Part shown: piece after piece, positions 4,473 through 11,652 of the stretch
Layout of the letters: the number at the start of each line of letters is the position of its first letter
Position numbering within the stretch: the stretch's first letter is position 1
Assembly (NCBI GenBank): GCA_009840575.1
Contig: VXNO01000023.1
Coordinates: forward strand, 1 to 34,745
Direction: 5' to 3'
From: Chloroflexota bacterium
GTDB lineage: Bacteria; Chloroflexota; Anaerolineae; Aggregatilineales; Phototrophicaceae
Length of the DNA stretch: 34,745 nucleotides
Notes under the pieces: model-generated
The model's input: only the letters and a program-made list of their open reading frames with translations
Database searches by the model: none
What the model was told of the DNA's origin: nothing
Program-made: the position numbers and the translations under genes

Positions 4473-6094
4473 GCACGAGCCTCGGCGAGCGGCGGCGGCA
4501 CAGAGGCTTCCCCTGGTTGCTTATGTTGTCTTTGCTGCTGCTTGTTGCCGCGGTTGCCTTGTTGATTAATGAACTGGTCGGGTTCAGCCGCCGCGAACAG
4601 CAATTGCCCGCTGGCATCAGCGTCGCTGGCATCAATATCAGCCGCTTGAACGAACGGGATGCCGTAGCCCGCTGGGAACGCGCCTATGCCGAGCCAGTCG
4701 AGCTGCTGTATCCATCAGAAGCTGGCGCGCAGCTCATCCTGCTCTACCCTGACCAGGTGGGCTGGCGCATCAGCAGCGAATCAATGCTGGCGGACGCCCT
4801 GGAATTGGGGGAACAGGGTGGCGGATTTTGGCGGCGATTCATCGACTACCTGCTGGGCATCGAGCAGATCGTATCCCGCGATATCCCGCTCAATGCTGAT
4901 TATCAGGAGAACACCCTGCGCGCTTACCTCGAAGATATCGCCGCGCGCTATGACAAGCCGCCGGGCTCCGCCAGCTATGACTTGCAGGCGCTCGTCGTCT
5001 ATCCCGGCAATAGCGGCAATACCCTGGATGTCGCCAGCGCGATCAATAGGGTCGATGCAGCTTTGCGTTCGGCGGTCGCGCGCGCAGTCGATTTGCCCAC
5101 CCTCGCGGTCAACACCCAGGCGCTGCGCTTGGACGCGCTGCGGGAGCTTATCATCGCCCTGCTGGACGACAAAGGCTTCATCTACGATGGCGTCAACACG
5201 GTCGCTTCGGTTTATATCCTGGATTTGCGCGGCGGCGAAGAGATCAGCATCCTGGGCGATGTGGCTTTTTCCGCTGCCAGCACCATCAAAGTGCCGATCA
5301 TGGTCGAGTACTTTCGCAGCTTGTCCACGCCACCCACCAACGACGAAGCCTGGCTCTTGGCGAACTCGCTGCTTTGTAGCAACAACTCGTCTTCCAATTT
5401 GATTATGGAGATCATCGGCGGCGGCGACATTTTTCGCGGGCTGCGGCGCGTCTCGGATACGGCGCAGGCGCTGAGCATCAGCAACACCTATATCACTGCG
5501 CCTTTCTACCTCGGCGTGGCGGGGCAGCAGCTTGGCTCCATCCAGGCGCCCGCCACCGCGCCCAACCCCAACTTTGATACCGAAGCCGACCCATTCAACC
5601 AGACGACAGCCGAAGATATGGGCGCGCTCTTCAACCTTATTTACGATTGCGCCCACTACAATTCCGGTTTGGCGCTCGCCCTGCCTGGCGCGGTAACGCA
5701 GCGCGAATGCCGGCAGATGCTCGAGCTCGGCAGCGCCAACGATCTGCTGCGCCTGCTGCAGGGTGGCATCCCCAGCGGCGTGCGCATCTCCCACAAAAAT
5801 GGCTGGATCGCCGATAGCGTTGGCGATGCCGGCGTGGTGTATTCACCCAATGGCAATCATTATGTGATTTCAGTTTTTTTGTGGGAGCGCTCAGAGTTCC
5901 AGGATTATCAAAAATTGTGGTCGCTGGTCGAAGAAATCTCCCGCGCCGCCTGGAATTATTTCAATCCACAAGCGCCGCTGCTGCAGCCGCGCGCCGATAC
6001 CCCGCTGACGGCGCAGGAATGCGAGGGCAACTACCTGCCGCCCGCCCCGGACTATGTCAACCTGGATGACATCAACGGCTGGCGGCGCAATTGA
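4469..6094 (+). CDS. VanW-like N-domain plus class A beta-lactamase-fold serine hydrolase
   Basis: A 541-aa extracytoplasmic protein: basic N-terminus, one membrane anchor (about residues 15-35), a region resembling the peptidoglycan-binding PG_binding_4/VanW N-domain (about 45-210, starting at LPAGISVAGINISRL), then a beta-lactamase2-like domain. The serine-hydrolase motifs are visible: S271-T-I-K274 (SxxK), S308-S-N310 (SxN) and K443-N-G445 (KTG-like, Thr replaced by Asn). A cell-wall role (binding or cleaving a peptidoglycan stem or acting as a penicillin-binding protein) is more likely than antibiotic resistance. The start is the ATG overlapping the NUDIX stop (ATGA); a longer frame to 4382 exists but would lie inside the NUDIX gene. 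Its stop is 6 nt from the stop of the convergent STAS gene. Confidence 0.8.
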   Translation: MSTSLGERRRHRGFPWLLMLSLLLLVAAVALLINELVGFSRREQQLPAGISVAGINISRLNERDAVARWERAYAEPVELLYPSEAGAQLILLYPDQVGWRISSESMLADALELGEQGGGFWRRFIDYLLGIEQIVSRDIPLNADYQENTLRAYLEDIAARYDKPPGSASYDLQALVVYPGNSGNTLDVASAINRVDAALRSAVARAVDLPTLAVNTQALRLDALRELIIALLDDKGFIYDGVNTVASVYILDLRGGEEISILGDVAFSAASTIKVPIMVEYFRSLSTPPTNDEAWLLANSLLCSNNSSSNLIMEIIGGGDIFRGLRRVSDTAQALSISNTYITAPFYLGVAGQQLGSIQAPATAPNPNFDTEADPFNQTTAEDMGALFNLIYDCAHYNSGLALALPGAVTQRECRQMLELGSANDLLRLLQGGIPSGVRISHKNGWIADSVGDAGVVYSPNGNHYVISVFLWERSEFQDYQKLWSLVEEISRAAWNYFNPQAPLLQPRADTPLTAQECEGNYLPPAPDYVNLDDINGWRRN

Positions 6095-6100
6095 GCGGGC

Positions 6101-6436
6101 TTACGGTGATTCCAGCGCCTCCGCCCGGCTGTCATAAATACGCAGGAGCTGGCCGAGCGCCGAAGCTGCCAGCGCCTCGCGGACGGCATCAGAGGGCTGC
6201 GCCAGGCTGAGGGCGGCACTATTGCGTCGCGCCAGCTTGAGCGCCTGCATCAGCGTAAACAAACCCGCCTCGCCGATGTGCTCGACCGCGCTCATTTCCA
6301 AAATGATTCGGCGCGCCCCTGCGGCTATCGCTTCGCCGACGATTGCCAAAAGCCGAGCCGACTCGCTCTCGTCCAGCCGCCCGGCGATTTCAACCAGCCG
6401 GACAGCGCCGTATTGGGAAAGCTCGAATGTCAGCAT
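6101..6436 (-). CDS. STAS-domain protein (anti-sigma factor antagonist-like)
   Basis: A 111-aa single-domain STAS protein of the SpoIIAA/RsbV type. In this family an unphosphorylated STAS protein binds an anti-sigma factor kinase, and phosphorylation of a conserved Ser switches it off. The core is visible: LVEIAGRLDESES, then RRIILEMSAVEHIGEAGLF at about residues 42-60. At the switch site the family has D-S-S-G-L; here it reads G-E-A-G-L (residues 55-59), so no phosphorylatable Ser is present. No anti-sigma kinase is adjacent. The nearest HATPase is the kinase-like protein at the left end. Divergent from the small membrane protein gene (53-bp gap) and convergent with the beta-lactamase-fold gene. 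Confidence 0.8.
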   Translation of the reverse strand: MLTFELSQYGAVRLVEIAGRLDESESARLLAIVGEAIAAGARRIILEMSAVEHIGEAGLFTLMQALKLARRNSAALSLAQPSDAVREALAASALGQLLRIYDSRAEALESP

Positions 6437-6453
6437 TTGTCGCCGCTCGGCTG

Positions 6454-6482
6454 TTCAATTGCTAGCAGATTGTGAGTATAAT
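6454..6482 (+). promoter_or_regulatory. Sigma70-type promoter of the small membrane protein gene
   Basis: TTCAAT (6454-6459), a 17-nt spacer and a perfect TATAAT (6477-6482). The -10 box overlaps the upstream ATG at 6481. The ATG at 6490 lies 7 nt after the box, so the transcript should be leaderless. Confidence 0.65.
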
Positions 6483-6489
6483 GGCAGCT

Positions 6490-6771
6490 ATGGACTGGGG
6501 CTACACACTGCTTATCACGCTGGCTGCGGCTGCATTGCTGCTGATGATCCAACGCGCCGAGCCGAAACGTCGGCGGCTGGTTGGCTTCTTTGTGATTTTG
6601 GCTTTGCTGCTGATCCGCCACAACGCATTTTTGAAAAGCCACCTGCACGAAGAGACGGCGATTGCCTTTGCGCTGGCACTCCTGTTGAACGGCGCATTCT
6701 GGTTGCTGATTGGGCGCTACAACCCGGTCAGCAGCAGCGACAATGTGCGGGTGCTCGGCATGGACGACTAA
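6490..6771 (+). CDS. Small three-helix membrane protein, unknown function
   Basis: A 93-aa hydrophobic protein. Three probable membrane helices are visible: about residues 5-20 (TLLITLAAAALLLMI), 30-42 (LVGFFVILALLLI) and 57-74 (TAIAFALALLLNGAFWLLI). A basic RRR loop separates the first two, and the C-terminus is acidic (VRVLGMDD). No family is recognised. The frame extends upstream to GTG 6472 and ATG 6481, but a perfect TATAAT occupies 6477-6482, so ATG 6490 at the expected transcription start is preferred. It is convergent with mrp. The two stop codons lie in the arms of a 9-bp inverted repeat. Confidence 0.65.
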   Translation: MDWGYTLLITLAAAALLLMIQRAEPKRRRLVGFFVILALLLIRHNAFLKSHLHEETAIAFALALLLNGAFWLLIGRYNPVSSSDNVRVLGMDD

Positions 6772-6785
6772 TCGCTGATTAGTCG
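6765..6785. repeat. Perfect 9-bp inverted repeat holding both convergent stop codons
   Basis: CGACTAATC, loop GCT, GATTAGTCG. The TAA of the plus-strand membrane protein (6769-6771) and the TAA of minus-strand mrp (6779-6781) sit in symmetrical positions in the two arms. There is no T-run on either side, so it is not a standard intrinsic terminator. Confidence 0.6.
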
Positions 6786-7831
6786 ATGATGCTGATGGGG
6801 ATGACATCCGCGCCTTGCAGCAGGGCAACGCTGATGCGCGCGGCACAAGCCTGCCCCAGCGCGCGAAATGCCTGCCCAGCCGCCGACTCTGGCTCGTGGA
6901 TTGACAGCGGCCTGCCCATATCGCCGCCTTGGCGAATGGAGGCTGTCAGGGGGATCCGCCCCAGAAAGGCGAAGCCGCGCTGATTAGCAAAGTCCTCGCC
7001 GCCGCCACTGCCGAAGAATTCCCCCGCCATATTCTCCACCACGCCCAGCACCGGCACATTCAACTGCTCGAACATCGCCGCGGCGCGAATGGCATCGGAG
7101 ACCGCGACATCCTGCGGCTGCGTAACGATGATGCTGCCAGTCAGCGGGAAGGACTGGGCGAGGGACAGCGGCGCATCGCCCGTGCCCGGTGGCAAATCCA
7201 CGATCATATAGTCCAGGCTGCCCCAGTTGACATCGGTGAAGAACTGGCGGATGGCGCTGTGTAGCATGGGCCCGCGCATAATCATCGGCTTGTCTGGCGA
7301 GGTCAGAAAGCCGCTGCTGATGAGCTTGACTCCGTAGACTTCCAGCGGCTGCATCTTCTTATTGACGACGCGCGGTCTGCCGCTGCCCAAGCCAAACATC
7401 TGTGGCAGGTTGGGGTTGAGGATGTCGGCGTCAATCAGCCCGACGCGCGCGCCCGCCTCCGCCAGGCAGACAGCCAGATTCGTGGCGACAGTGCTCTTGC
7501 CCACCCCGCCCTTGCCGCTGGCGACCGCAACGATGCTGTTCATCGGCATATCCAGACGCCCGTGGATACGCCGGTCGGTCGGAACCTGGGCATCCCAGCT
7601 AATTTTCACCTGCTTGATTCCCGGCACGCGCCCGATCAAGGCGGCGTTGCAGCGCTCGACAAAGACATCTTTTAAGGGGCAAGCTGGCGTCGTCAGCACG
7701 ATGGTGAAGGCAGCAGTGCCATTATCCACTTGCAAATCACTCACCATATTGAGCGTGACAATATCGCGATTGAGTTCGGGCTCGATAACGGTGCCCAGCG
7801 CCGTCATCACTTGCTGATGCAGCTTGTTCAT
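6779..7831 (-). CDS. mrp: Mrp/ApbC-family Fe-S cluster carrier P-loop ATPase
   Basis: A 350-aa protein with the Mrp architecture: an N-terminal MIP18/DUF59 domain (about residues 4-80, with the conserved TTPACPLKD Cys) and a MinD/ParA-type P-loop ATPase (SGKGGVGKST at 105-114, DADILNPNLP, DLPPGTGDAPLS). Mrp proteins and their mitochondrial relative Ind1/NUBPL carry Fe-S clusters to targets. Ind1 is specific for complex I, which fits its place as last gene of the iscX-nuoB-nuoCD-nuoI operon. The C-terminal CxxC that bridges a cluster between two Mrp subunits is not seen: the usual position reads VENMAGEFFGSGGGED. ATG 7831 follows the nuoI TGA after one nucleotide (TGATATG). The frame remains open upstream into nuoI, but that part is only a shadow. 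Confidence 0.88.
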   Translation of the reverse strand: MNKLHQQVMTALGTVIEPELNRDIVTLNMVSDLQVDNGTAAFTIVLTTPACPLKDVFVERCNAALIGRVPGIKQVKISWDAQVPTDRRIHGRLDMPMNSIVAVASGKGGVGKSTVATNLAVCLAEAGARVGLIDADILNPNLPQMFGLGSGRPRVVNKKMQPLEVYGVKLISSGFLTSPDKPMIMRGPMLHSAIRQFFTDVNWGSLDYMIVDLPPGTGDAPLSLAQSFPLTGSIIVTQPQDVAVSDAIRAAAMFEQLNVPVLGVVENMAGEFFGSGGGEDFANQRGFAFLGRIPLTASIRQGGDMGRPLSIHEPESAAGQAFRALGQACAARISVALLQGADVIPISIID

Positions 7832-7832
7832 A

Positions 7833-8654
7833 TCAGCCACCACGTTTGGCGGCTCGGCGCGCCTTGCGTTCCAATGCCTTGCGGCGCCTTTCTTCACGCT
7901 TGGCGTCGTCTTCGCTCCAGGGTGTCGCTCCCCCTGCGCTTGCGGCTGGGGCGGGAGTCGCTTGCGCGGCTGGCTGGGCTGGCGCGGGGGCAGCTTGGGC
8001 GGCTGGACGCGGCGCGCTTGGGCGGCTGCTTGTTTGTCCACGACGCGCTTCTTTGGCGGCGTCTTTGTGTTCCCATGTGCCACGGGACAACATCTCTTCG
8101 TAGGCGCGCGTCGGGGCGATGCTGCGCCAATAGGAATTGGGCTTGGACAAACGGTCTTTGTCGTGGATGTGATGCGTCGTGCGGTCATAACTGGCCAGCT
8201 CGTAGTCATGATCCATCTTGATGGCATCAAAGGGGCAATACTCAGCGCAATAGCCACAATTCATGCAGATGTCGATATCGATGAAGAAGGCTTCTGGCTC
8301 AGGCACGGGCCGCCCGGTGACGGGGTCATTGCCGCGCACGATCCAGATGCACTGCGGCGGGCAGACTTTGGCGCAGATGCCACAGCTGGTGCACCAGTCT
8401 TTGCCGGCGCGGGTGGGGTGGTCTTCGTCTTCGATGATCAGAAAAGGCACGAAGCGGAAACGTTCGGGCACCGCCACTTTTTCGTCCGGGTATTGTACTG
8501 TGATGACGCCTTTGGTCTGCGTGCCTTGACGCACTCCAAAGTTGTCGACCGAATGGCTGTATTTGCGAAAGCCATAACGGATGTCGTCGATATAGGAGTC
8601 GACGAAATGCCGCAGTGTCAGCAGCAAGCCTTTTGCCAAGCCGGTTCCGTACAT
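7833..8654 (-). CDS. nuoI: NADH-quinone oxidoreductase subunit I with basic C-terminal tail
   Basis: A 273-aa NuoI. This subunit carries clusters N6a and N6b that pass electrons from the NADH module to NuoB. Two full CxxCxxCxxxCP motifs are present (Cys 88, 91, 94, 98 and Cys 130, 133, 136, 140). The N-terminal helix region (GLLLTLRHFVDSYIDDI) fits membrane-surface contact. Usual family length is about 150-220 aa. Here residues about 190-240 form an Ala/Pro-rich linker, followed by a basic tail (TPWSEDDA...KALERKARRAAKR) that closely matches the tail of NuoB in the same operon. It lies 22 nt after nuoCD and one base before mrp, so it is co-transcribed. Confidence 0.93.
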   Translation of the reverse strand: MYGTGLAKGLLLTLRHFVDSYIDDIRYGFRKYSHSVDNFGVRQGTQTKGVITVQYPDEKVAVPERFRFVPFLIIEDEDHPTRAGKDWCTSCGICAKVCPPQCIWIVRGNDPVTGRPVPEPEAFFIDIDICMNCGYCAEYCPFDAIKMDHDYELASYDRTTHHIHDKDRLSKPNSYWRSIAPTRAYEEMLSRGTWEHKDAAKEARRGQTSSRPSAPRPAAQAAPAPAQPAAQATPAPAASAGGATPWSEDDAKREERRRKALERKARRAAKRGG

Positions 8655-8676
8655 TTGCCCTCCTCGCTGCGCTTGC

Positions 8677-10551
8677 CTAGCGGTCGGTCTCGCCCAGCAC
8701 GATGTCGATGCTGCCCAGGATGCCTACGATGTCGGCGACTTTGTAGCCTTTGCTCATGATGCCCATGGGCGTCAAGTTGATGAAGCTGGGGGCGCGCACA
8801 TGATAGCGCCAAGGGTTGGCGGTGCCGCTCCTGCCGCCTGCCGACACGATGTAATAGCCCAGCTCGCCCTTGCCATTTTCCACGCGCCCATAGGCTTCGC
8901 CCAAGGGGACGCGGGGAGCATACGCGCCGGGCTTGCCATCCGCCCAGATCGATTGCCCCTTAGTCGCTTCCAGCCGCGGCAAGATCTGCCGCAAAATGCG
9001 CACGCTCTCGCGCAGTTCCTTGACGCGAACCCGATAGCGCGCGTACATATCGCCAGCGTCTTCCACCGCGACATCAAAGTCCAACTCTTCGTAAATACTA
9101 TAGGGGTCGGCGCGGCGAATATCATAAGGCACGCCACTGCCCCGCAGCAGCGGACCAGCCGCGCTGTAGTTGATGGCGTCTTCGGCGCTGAGCACACCCA
9201 CGCCCACCGAGCGCTCGATGAGAATTTCGTTCTGTGTGAGCAGTTGCTCCAGCTCGTCGATCGTGCGCGGGATGCGCTCGCTGACCATCTCGGTGAGGAA
9301 TTGCATGGTGTTGTAATCGCGCACGCGGTCGTTGGTCAGGTTGCTGACGCTTTTTAGCCGTTCAGGCAGGTCGGCAAACAAACCGCCAAAGCGCATATAG
9401 TTGCACATCATACGGCTGCCAGCTACCGCCTCGAAGAAATCCAGAATCCGTTCGCGCTCTTGAATGAAATACAGCACTGGCGTGAAGAACGCGCCGATGT
9501 CGTTCAGCCAAAAGCCGATCGCCCACAGGTGATTGACGATGCGGCTGAGCTCGACCATCATCACGCGCAGCGCCTCGCAGCGATAAGTCGGCTCGTTGTA
9601 GCGTCGCCCCAAGCTCAGCAATTGCTCGACCGCCAGCACGTAGCCATGGTTGTTGCCCATGCTGCTGATGTAATCAAGGCGGTCGGTGAAGGGGATATTG
9701 TGCAGGTAAGTGTTGCGCTCGCCGATTTTTTCATGGTTGCGATGCAAATAGCCCATGACCGGCTCGAGCGATGTCACCGTCTCGCCATCGACCGTCAGCA
9801 CCATGCGGAAGACGCCATGCGTGCTGGGGTGGTGCGGCCCCATATTCACCACCAGCTCATTGGTCTCAAAGCCGTCTTTGTCCATGACGCGCTCGACATC
9901 CACGCCCAAGCCCAGCGATTGGTATACGGCGGTCTCGGATGTATCCATCAAGCGGCTGAGGTCGATCTCGCGCGGATAGCTGACATTCTTGCCAAAGACA
10001 TTTTTCTCTTCAGCGCGGTGCACATGGCCGCCGGGCCAGCGGCTGTCGAATGGCTTCAGCTCTTCTTCATAATAGGCTTCGCGCCAGTCCTTGCGCATGG
10101 GGTGGCCGTGAAAGCCCTCCCACATCAAGATGCGCTTCAAATTGGGATGCCCCGGGAAGCGGATGCCGTATAAGTCCCAGGCTTCGCGCTCTTGGAAGTC
10201 CGCCCCACGCCATACCGAAACCAGTGAGGGGATTTCGGCATTGTCGCGGTCGGTCTGCGCCTTGAAGACCAATGTGCCGCCACCACTGCTGCGGTAGGCG
10301 TGGTAGACCATTTCCATGTGGTCGCCAGCGCCCAGATAATCGACCGCCGTCGCGCTGGAGAGGTAGTCGAAGCCCAGCTCATCGCGGATGACGCGGGCGA
10401 TATCCAGCAGTTGCGCGCTGTCGACGATGATGCCGCCATAGCCTTCGCGGTCGTCGGCGCTGATTGCATCGGGGTAGCTGGCTTTTAAGTGGTCGATCGC
10501 GCCTTCTATGCTCGTGTTGGTCAGGGGCGCGGCGGGGGCGGCAGTCGGCAT
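8677..10551 (-). CDS. nuoCD: Fused NADH-quinone oxidoreductase subunits C and D
   Basis: A 624-aa fusion of the 30-kDa (NuoC, about residues 15-190) and 49-kDa (NuoD, about 225-624) subunits of complex I. The NuoC signature is seen in [19 protein letters not shown] and [11 protein letters not shown]. The NuoD signature is seen in [19 protein letters not shown], the quinone-site His loop, with conserved blocks [17 protein letters not shown] and MFYMRFGG-like MCNYMRFGG. NuoD forms the quinone chamber with NuoB. No separate nuoC or nuoD start with a ribosome site is visible at the junction, so it is a true fusion as in enterobacteria. It starts 6 nt after nuoB; a GAGGA lies in the last nuoB codons. 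It lacks the basic tail found on NuoB and NuoI. Confidence 0.93.
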
Positions 10552-10557
10552 AAGGCT

Positions 10558-11439
10558 TTATTCCTCTTCTGCTGAGGCGCGGCGGCTGGCACGTAGAGCC
10601 TTGCGAGCCAAAGCGCGCAGCCGGCGTTTCTCACGAATGTCTTCGGCTTCTGTCCAGGGGGTGCCGCCAGTCGGCAATTCATAAGCCAGCGCGTTTCCAT
10701 TGGCGGGCGCGGCTTCGGCGGGCGCTGCGGTGCTGGCAGCCGTCTTCGCGGGGGCCAACTGCATGGCGGCGGGCAGCTCGCGGGTACCTAGCGCGGTCAT
10801 CTCTTGCGCGGCGCGTTCAGCCTGGCGGCGGATCATGTCCATCTGGCGCGGGTCGATGATGTCAGGTCCCAGCACTGGCACCGGCGTCGGCTCGGCTGAG
10901 CCTGCGCCATACCAAGGCACATCGTCGCCATTGGCGATGCTTTGCCCATCGATTTTTCGCTGCAAGGCAATCATCCCATACAGCAGCGCCTGGGGAGTCG
11001 GCGGGCAGCCGGGCACATAGACATCCACTGGCAGGTATTTATCCATGCCAGAGACGACATTGTAACCCTCTTTGAAAGGCCCGCCGCCACTGGCGCATGC
11101 GCCCATCGCCAGCACATACTTGGGTTCGGGCATCTGGTTGTAGAGGCGCACGATCGGCACGACCATCTTTTTGGTCACTGTGCCAGAGACGATCATCAAG
11201 TCGGCTTGACGCGGCGTCGCGCGCATGACCTCAAAGCCGAAGCGCGAAAAGTCGAAGCGCGATGAGGCGGTGGCGATCATTTCTATCGCGCAGCAAGCCA
11301 GCCCAAAGAGCATGGGCCACATGGAATTGCGCCGCCCCCAGTTGTAGAGCTGGCTGAGGCTGGTGATGGCGATATTGCTCTCCAGCTCGGCTGGCACGGG
11401 GAATTCGGTTGCATTGAGCTCTTGCAAGTTCAAGTCCAT
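10558..11439 (-). CDS. nuoB: NADH-quinone oxidoreductase subunit B with C-terminal extension
   Basis: A 293-aa NuoB (PSST subunit), which holds cluster N2 next to quinone. The four-cysteine N2 set is visible: tandem C49-C50 (LACCAIEM), C115 (GACASGGG) and C145 (PGCPPTP). The canonical domain ends near residue 170. Most NuoB proteins are about 160-220 aa, so this one has an extra tail of about 90 aa or more. The tail runs through an Ala/Pro-rich linker (about 225-255) to a basic segment (TPWTEAED...[13 protein letters not shown], 260-287) nearly the same as that of NuoI. The ATG is immediately next to the stop of iscX (11440-11442), so the two are translationally coupled. Confidence 0.93.
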
Positions 11440-11652
11440 CTATTCGCCGCTCTCCTCATACCAATCGCGCAGAATCTGCCGCAGTATCGCATCGTTGACC
11501 AGCGCCGGGTCATCGGCGAAACCCGGCAGCCGCACGATGCGCTCATACAACTCATGTAAGCCGATAGTGTCCAGATCGGCATCGGGGTAGGCGCGCAACA
11601 AAGCCAGGACGATCTCATAATCCGCGTCCCAATACAAAGCCGTCCCCGACAT
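11440..11652 (-). CDS. iscX: IscX-like Fe-S assembly regulator
   Basis: A 70-aa acidic protein that matches the IscX (YfhJ) family over its full length; the E. coli protein is 66 aa. Diagnostic blocks are LYWDADYEIVLALLRAYPD near the N-terminus, the central LPGFADDP and the C-terminal ILRQILRDWYEE. IscX binds the cysteine desulfurase IscS and iron and tunes cluster assembly; it is normally found at the end of isc operons. Here it is instead the first gene of the nuoB-nuoCD-nuoI-mrp operon. A consensus promoter ends 9 nt before the ATG, so the message should have almost no 5' leader. No Shine-Dalgarno is seen. Confidence 0.85.
   Translation of the reverse strand: MSGTALYWDADYEIVLALLRAYPDADLDTIGLHELYERIVRLPGFADDPALVNDAILRQILRDWYEESGE

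Follow-up and report, generated by a model that had tools for sequence, protein, structure and literature searches.

Matched C-terminal tails on the complex I subunits NuoB and NuoI in a Chloroflexota lineage, and their possible role as a docking tag

The core subunits of respiratory complex I are highly conserved, and among its accessory subunits NDUFA9 is an SDR. Two kinds of peptide signal known from other settings also invite comparison with what is described here, namely the encapsulation peptides of bacterial microcompartments, which are helical and often linker-tethered, and the tripeptide of cytosolic Fe-S client proteins, which has a hydrophobic-acidic-aromatic pattern and stands at the very C-terminus. 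To go by the available portions of the relevant papers, encapsulation peptides occur on different enzymes and are recognised by one common structure (PMC11157265, PMC7221423), while the tripeptide is common to unrelated clients and adaptors (PMC10623007); the accessory subunits of complex I have been reviewed (PMC8762328, available in part). For Chloroflexus aurantiacus, the accessible text of PMC3150298 describes two complex I clusters, one an ordered set of 14 genes and the second loosely arranged, and states that no complex I biochemistry then existed for this organism or for other filamentous anoxygenic phototrophs. A search of open-licence papers for C-terminal extensions of NuoB or NuoI, for Chloroflexota and for shared C-terminal motifs in complex I yielded no description of a motif of the present kind, in agreement with the initial annotation of this DNA, which had taken it to be undescribed; the nearest papers, as far as their accessible parts go, deal with the complex I of E. 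coli and an enzyme of Thermococcus, and neither concerns this group.

The locus considered here lies in a stretch of 34,745 nucleotides (called the window below, meaning the whole stretch that was analysed) from a Chloroflexota bacterium (assembly GCA_009840575.1, contig VXNO01000023.1). Its minus strand carries a row of genes comprising an iscX-like gene, nuoB, nuoCD, nuoI and mrp, the relevant features being as follows:

11440..11652, minus strand: iscX-like gene, 70 aa, directly upstream of nuoB; an open reading frame named by eye
10558..11439, minus strand: nuoB, 293 aa; Pfam PF01058 at 95.4 bits (cut-off 27), with NCBIfam NuoB subfamily models above cut-off
10663..10797, minus strand: Ala/Pro-rich linker of NuoB, about residues 215-259, recognised by composition; linkers across the genus 64% identical, pN/pS 0.36
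10561..10662, minus strand: C-terminal tag of NuoB, residues 260-293 (34 residues); tail model match E 1.5e-17
8677..10551, minus strand: nuoCD, 624 aa, untagged (C-terminus read); Pfam PF00346 and PF00329
7833..8654, minus strand: nuoI, 273 aa; Pfam Fer4 domains
7926..8048, minus strand: Ala/Pro-rich linker of NuoI, about residues 203-243, recognised by composition; linkers across the genus 53% identical, pN/pS 0.44
7836..7925, minus strand: C-terminal tag of NuoI, residues 244-273, TPWSEDDAKREERRRKALERKARRAAKRGG; tail model match E 7.9e-18, predicted helix 250-271
6779..7831, minus strand: mrp (NUBPL-type P-loop NTPase), 350 aa from the start proposed here, untagged; Pfam PF10609 and PF01883 on the longer ORF 6779-8257

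NuoB and NuoI belong to different Pfam families. The Fer4 match of NuoI (43.4 bits, over the cut-off) falls in two stretches and its best NCBIfam match is TIGR01971, the NuoI model, at 92.1 bits against a cut-off of 113; the assignment is supported by the gene order with nuoB and nuoCD. At their ends, however, these different proteins align without gaps, the NuoB tail being identical to the NuoI tail (TPWSEDDAKREERRRKALERKARRAAKR) at 16 of 28 positions, as had originally been noticed; when both 28-mers were shuffled and the best of 11 offsets taken, none of 20,000 trials reached 16, the maximum being 13. The length of 34 residues first given for the NuoB tail holds, whereas that of NuoI is 30 rather than 31. 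Other parts of the original description were borne out as well: both tails follow Ala/Pro-rich stretches (Ala and Pro make up 44% of the preceding 45 residues in NuoB and 58% in NuoI), they extend beyond the normal family length (in the window NuoB, the Pfam domain ends at residue 158 and the best NCBIfam NuoB model at residue 193, and the second NuoB of the same genome has 167 aa), and no such tail was seen when the C-termini of NuoCD and also Mrp were read. The observation is nevertheless larger than first reported, in that the genome encodes a third tailed protein and the tails are matched by genome across the family.

The third protein emerged when a plain NuoI query was searched against 25 genomes of the genus and 16 genomes of the same order but other families, since in all 25 of the former it also matched the end of an atypical extended SDR of about 390-413 aa, encoded at an unlinked locus (in the two such loci listed, no nuo genes were noticed alongside). 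A tail model built from 15 tails of this genus matched exactly three proteins strongly in every one of the 25 genomes, NuoB, NuoI and the SDR (75 matches in total, E ≤1.3e-13), a result that arises partly by construction because the model was built from the tails of this genus. The informative part of the search is that nothing else comes near, the next best match anywhere having E 0.026, and no match in the 16 same-order genomes being better than E 0.09; the model thus does not merely pick out generic basic sequence, which had been a concern at the outset. Among 396 genomes drawn from the class, the 11 belonging to the genus had three matches each, 6 of the 17 other family genomes had one to three, and none of the 368 genomes outside the family matched. 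A two-tail-pattern scan of a collection of genome contigs gave 63 confirmed loci, of which 32 have a match to the SDR domain and the remaining 31, taken as a group, to the tail region alone. The titles of all 63 are those of Chloroflexi, Chloroflexota, Anaerolineae or Anaerolineales MAGs, and bin prefixes such as COS, RHO and CAR would fit sponge species named in the accessible part of PMC8163846.

Within the genus the tail of the SDR is 93% identical, against 62% for its enzyme domain. A Rossmann-type SDR fold is present (extended SDR, GalE/RmlB type), and the catalytic YxxxK motif of SDR enzymes is absent, the aligned stretch being mostly YAPML and deleted in three rows of a 24-row alignment read by eye. 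In the SDRs of G000, G007 and G015 (L063, L064, L095) the region surrounding the usual active site has been lost, which is not so in the remaining 21 rows. No orthologue of this SDR was seen in the 16 same-order genomes, 7 of which gave matches to its N-terminal part only (E 4e-11 to 9e-9, limit 1e-8). An identification of the SDR with NDUFA9 found no support among the matches listed, NDUFA9 appearing in neither the sequence-match nor the fold-match lists.

Beyond the genus, 55 further loci from the family show tails that vary from genus to genus, though those of one genome tend to match. In G059, for instance, both NuoB and NuoI carry APWEESEEI; G364, G381 and G391 have KPW...ALARKA on both subunits, and G375 has IDPKKARLMKKR.EMLARK on both, while in genera g18 and g235 the two subunits both end in KFDKQAMLAKIREKKA, a motif unrelated to the window tag. 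Over 48 genomes from 18 genera, the mean score of NuoB-NuoI tail alignments was 87.8 for pairs from the same genome versus 47.2 for pairs from different genera. With one genome per genus, none of 100,000 permutations reached the observed same-genome match, and with permutation confined within tag types the median p was 0/1,000 and the largest 0.001, figures from permutations that are not tree-aware. Covariation within genera was mixed (0/20,000 for g18, p 0.92 for g16, 909/20,000 for all genera together). In these pairing tests G000 alone represents its genus, and 8 of the 55 non-genus loci were left out, either since no NuoB was found (G313, G437, G459, G461) or since the NuoI tail has 60 residues or fewer (G238, G249, G463, G458).

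Whether close relatives keep the similarity, a point raised with the initial annotation, thus has a divided answer: both tails are kept in all 25 genomes of the genus, while NuoI has no tail in G238, G249 and G463. Further exceptions are the NuoB of G439, which is without tag 2, and the pairs in G448 and G410, which score below the median of between-genus pairs. In both genomes of genus g21 the NuoI match (G249:C27:68621-69334; G463:C7:633891-634589) contains one TGA, and the protein ends short and untagged. Inspection by eye of the 16 genomes from other families of the order revealed no matched tails, and NuoB there stops shortly past its core. Two of these genomes, G031 (L221) and G037 (L227), have on NuoI a very different C-terminal extension, made of a repeated module of about 60-70 residues (SINVEGASPDQLAQWAANEGLPLPARSAAALKLEQMI...) of which the 542-residue ORF of G031 has at least two copies; G026 (L216) has two adjoining nuoB-like ORFs at 6042-7636.

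A second model, made for the KFDKQAMLAKIREKKA-type tag (tag 2) and searched through 98 family genomes at E 0.01, matched 19 of them, namely all 17 of g18 and both of g235; the same model matched none of 400 genomes from the phylum at E 1e-4, a draw that apparently included no g18 genome and for which the family search serves as positive control. In 11 of the 17 g18 genomes one match was to neither NuoB nor NuoI. Six of these extra carriers, read whole, proved to be NuoH in which a long Ala/Pro linker leads to the tag; a seventh, at a contig end, is a C-terminal fragment that matches, and four were assigned by ORF length alone. To see where such a NuoH belongs it must be borne in mind that the window genome, G000, has nuoH twice and its complex I genes in two sets. 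Contig C182 (L214) carries what looks like a full nuo operon, with neither NuoB nor NuoI tagged; contig C169 (L213) carries nuoA, H, J and K close to its end, and these would be the membrane part of the set containing the nuoB-CD-I of the window. The six g18 NuoH are 53-60% identical to the C182 NuoH and 35-41% to that of C169, and downstream of them lies a NuoI 76-83% identical to the C182 NuoI (in the one locus read, it has 164 aa and is untagged, and by eye there is a NuoG-like ORF upstream). The idea that the tag marks a single complex I was consequently dropped, the tagged g18 NuoH being closer to the other set; if the pairing of C169 with the window genes is accepted, the tag links subunits that belong to two different complex I sets.

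A broad tag-1 model, A6, proved insensitive, matching none of 34 genus genomes at E 0.01 despite the tagged NuoB and NuoI there, so that further divergent tagged proteins may exist. Its other matches, at E 1e-5 to 7e-3, were to small ORFs about 100 aa long, and the seven that were read (L337-L343; G364, G381, G466, G391, G467, G458, G457), all from genera other than that of the window, have one likely membrane stretch by eye and a tag-1-like C-terminus. Their tie to complex I is weak, as no nuo genes were noticed beside the two loci listed, no Pfam family came over cut-off in the four scanned, and for one of them four relatives in all were found, the query included.

As to the tail itself, a helix is predicted at 250-271 in NuoI (in a model that is poor overall, pLDDT 49.8) and at 384-408 in the SDR. 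In the genus, tail pN/pS is 0.10-0.12 compared with 0.36-0.44 for the linkers and 0.40 for the SDR domain (the SDR values here, and its codon comparison below, come from 24 of the 25 genomes, G003 being left out), so the tail is strongly constrained and the linker not. Linkers are Ala/Pro-rich and change freely in length. A second, internal ALARKAARAAK copy occurs in the linker, besides the terminal tag, in the NuoB of G381, G364 and G391 (L196, L198, L202), and likewise in the NuoI of G350 (L199).

Several explanations need to be weighed. That the match is a functionless by-product of gene conversion or low-complexity drift is very improbable, even though the freely varying Ala/Pro-rich linkers and the loss of one tail in some genomes would fit, as would the codons of the NuoI and SDR tails, which in the genus are the same in 322 of 555 cases where codon usage predicts 231, as in an old copy. 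Against this, the NuoB and NuoI tails use the same codon at 431 of 988 identical aligned residues in 47 genomes, so little above the 397 expected from codon usage that recent gene conversion does not explain the match and is disfavoured; NuoI-SDR codon sharing is the same within genomes (0.58) as between them (0.576), and the pN/pS of the tail is a third or less of the linker value. The codon results point instead to a match kept at the protein level. Because NuoI-SDR sharing exceeds expectation, yet is equal within and between genomes, an old copy from NuoI to the SDR is plausible, whereas for the NuoB tail it is uncertain whether an old copy or convergence lies behind it, the NuoB and NuoI tails being near saturation at synonymous sites. 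Where the initial annotation spoke of a duplicated docking helix, it is accordingly the word "duplicated" that is in doubt.

Three other possibilities grant the tail a function. The tags might bind one another without any separate receptor, the tails of NuoB, NuoI and the third protein forming a helical bundle that cross-links complexes. This would require all copies to share one sequence, and the match within genomes, kept even where the carriers differ between lineages, is what it would predict; but with a net charge of +4 to +8 and few large apolar residues like helices should repel, and a bundle seems unlikely. It is quite unlikely, too, that these are simply basic helices which attach through their charge to acidic lipids or nucleic acid and resemble each other through similar composition pressure. 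The tails are indeed strongly basic, and NuoB, NuoI and NuoH lie at or in the membrane, yet the best helical windows are hydrophilic (mean hydrophobicity -0.50 to -0.08, unlike the 0.29 presumed here for MinD as a yardstick), which also weakens the earlier suggestion of the membrane surface as partner. Moreover, charge alone requires neither residue matching genome by genome nor a pN/pS of 0.10, and the tail model finds no other protein of the genus at E <0.026. Finally, the tail could be a client signal for maturation or quality control, read by an Fe-S carrier such as Mrp or acting as a degron on unassembled subunits. NuoB and NuoI are Fe-S subunits, encoded between iscX and mrp, and the untagged NuoCD has no Fe-S match in Pfam. 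However, the SDR and NuoH, which also bear the tag, are not Fe-S families by Pfam, and the other complex I set of the window genome matures without tags on its NuoB and NuoI. As for IscX, homologues were found by tblastn in 52 of 55 family loci and in all 25 nuoB loci of the genus, but 10 of the 16 same-order genomes from other families, in which no matched tails were seen, likewise have a match in the nuoB locus fetched from them. A client signal is therefore decidedly unlikely, and Mrp or IscX, named at first as possible partners, receive no special support.

The reading preferred here, for which the chances are judged to be about even, is that the tail serves at the C-terminus as a helical docking tag, flexibly tethered by Ala/Pro sequence and read by one putative receptor that also gathers other respiratory proteins. 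As the sequences show, the tag sits on NuoB and NuoI of the split-operon complex I and, in some lineages, on one further protein, which is the SDR in the genus of the window, NuoH of the other complex I set in g18 and, less securely, a small membrane protein in certain sister genera. A single receptor, differing between lineages, would bind the tag, which would explain why both subunits keep one sequence and change it together while linkers and SDR domain drift; such binding would draw accessory proteins and the other complex I to the quinone-reducing module, so forming a larger respiratory assembly, or, alternatively, would hold those parts together while the assembly is being built. The docking helix and common partner of the initial annotation are to this extent supported, by the three tagged proteins in each genome of the genus, the matching within genomes, the constraint on the tail and the lack of any sign of recent conversion, and two unrelated tag sequences are each found on both NuoB and NuoI. 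There are also observations that count against a docking tag: the third carrier varies by lineage, and in g18 comes from the other complex I set, contrary to what one would expect of a simple model with a single complex, and to this must be added the tail-less NuoI or NuoB of some genomes, the low scores of G448 and G410 and the mixed covariation within genera. A bolder version, doubtful though worth stating, is that a lineage-specific receptor reads a short helical address tag and links the quinone-reducing module of one complex I with the second isoform of the enzyme and with accessory proteins. The result would be a bacterial respiratory assembly built by means of tags, with tag and receptor co-evolving so fast that related genera carry unrelated tags.

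Set beside the described systems, the tag resembles encapsulation peptides in being a short terminal peptide, predicted to be helical, on an Ala/Pro linker and common to different proteins, but differs from them in sitting on respiratory complex I subunits, in being strongly basic and in changing between genera in step on two subunits. With the Fe-S tripeptide it shares the character of a C-terminal signal on unrelated proteins, but it has about 28 residues rather than three, some of its carriers are not Fe-S proteins, and the tails read end in small, acidic or basic residues, their Trp standing at the tail start. Like NDUFA9, the SDR has an SDR fold and is connected with complex I subunits, the connection here being the shared tag only. 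As in C. aurantiacus, two complex I sets are present in a member of the same phylum; unlike here, no C-terminal tags are mentioned in the accessible text of PMC3150298.

In this family, then, two core subunits of complex I carry a matched, fast-switching tag in spite of the conservation usual for the core, which amounts to a natural experiment in which one peptide address has been changed in parallel on several proteins, and offers a test case for the organisation of complex I in bacteria that have two sets of it. Should there be a receptor, the tag would provide a handle for finding it, as bait in a pull-down, and a genome-wide search key, which already names one SDR per genome as a candidate partner of complex I. 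The shared tag thus points to a hidden common binding partner in the respiratory machinery.
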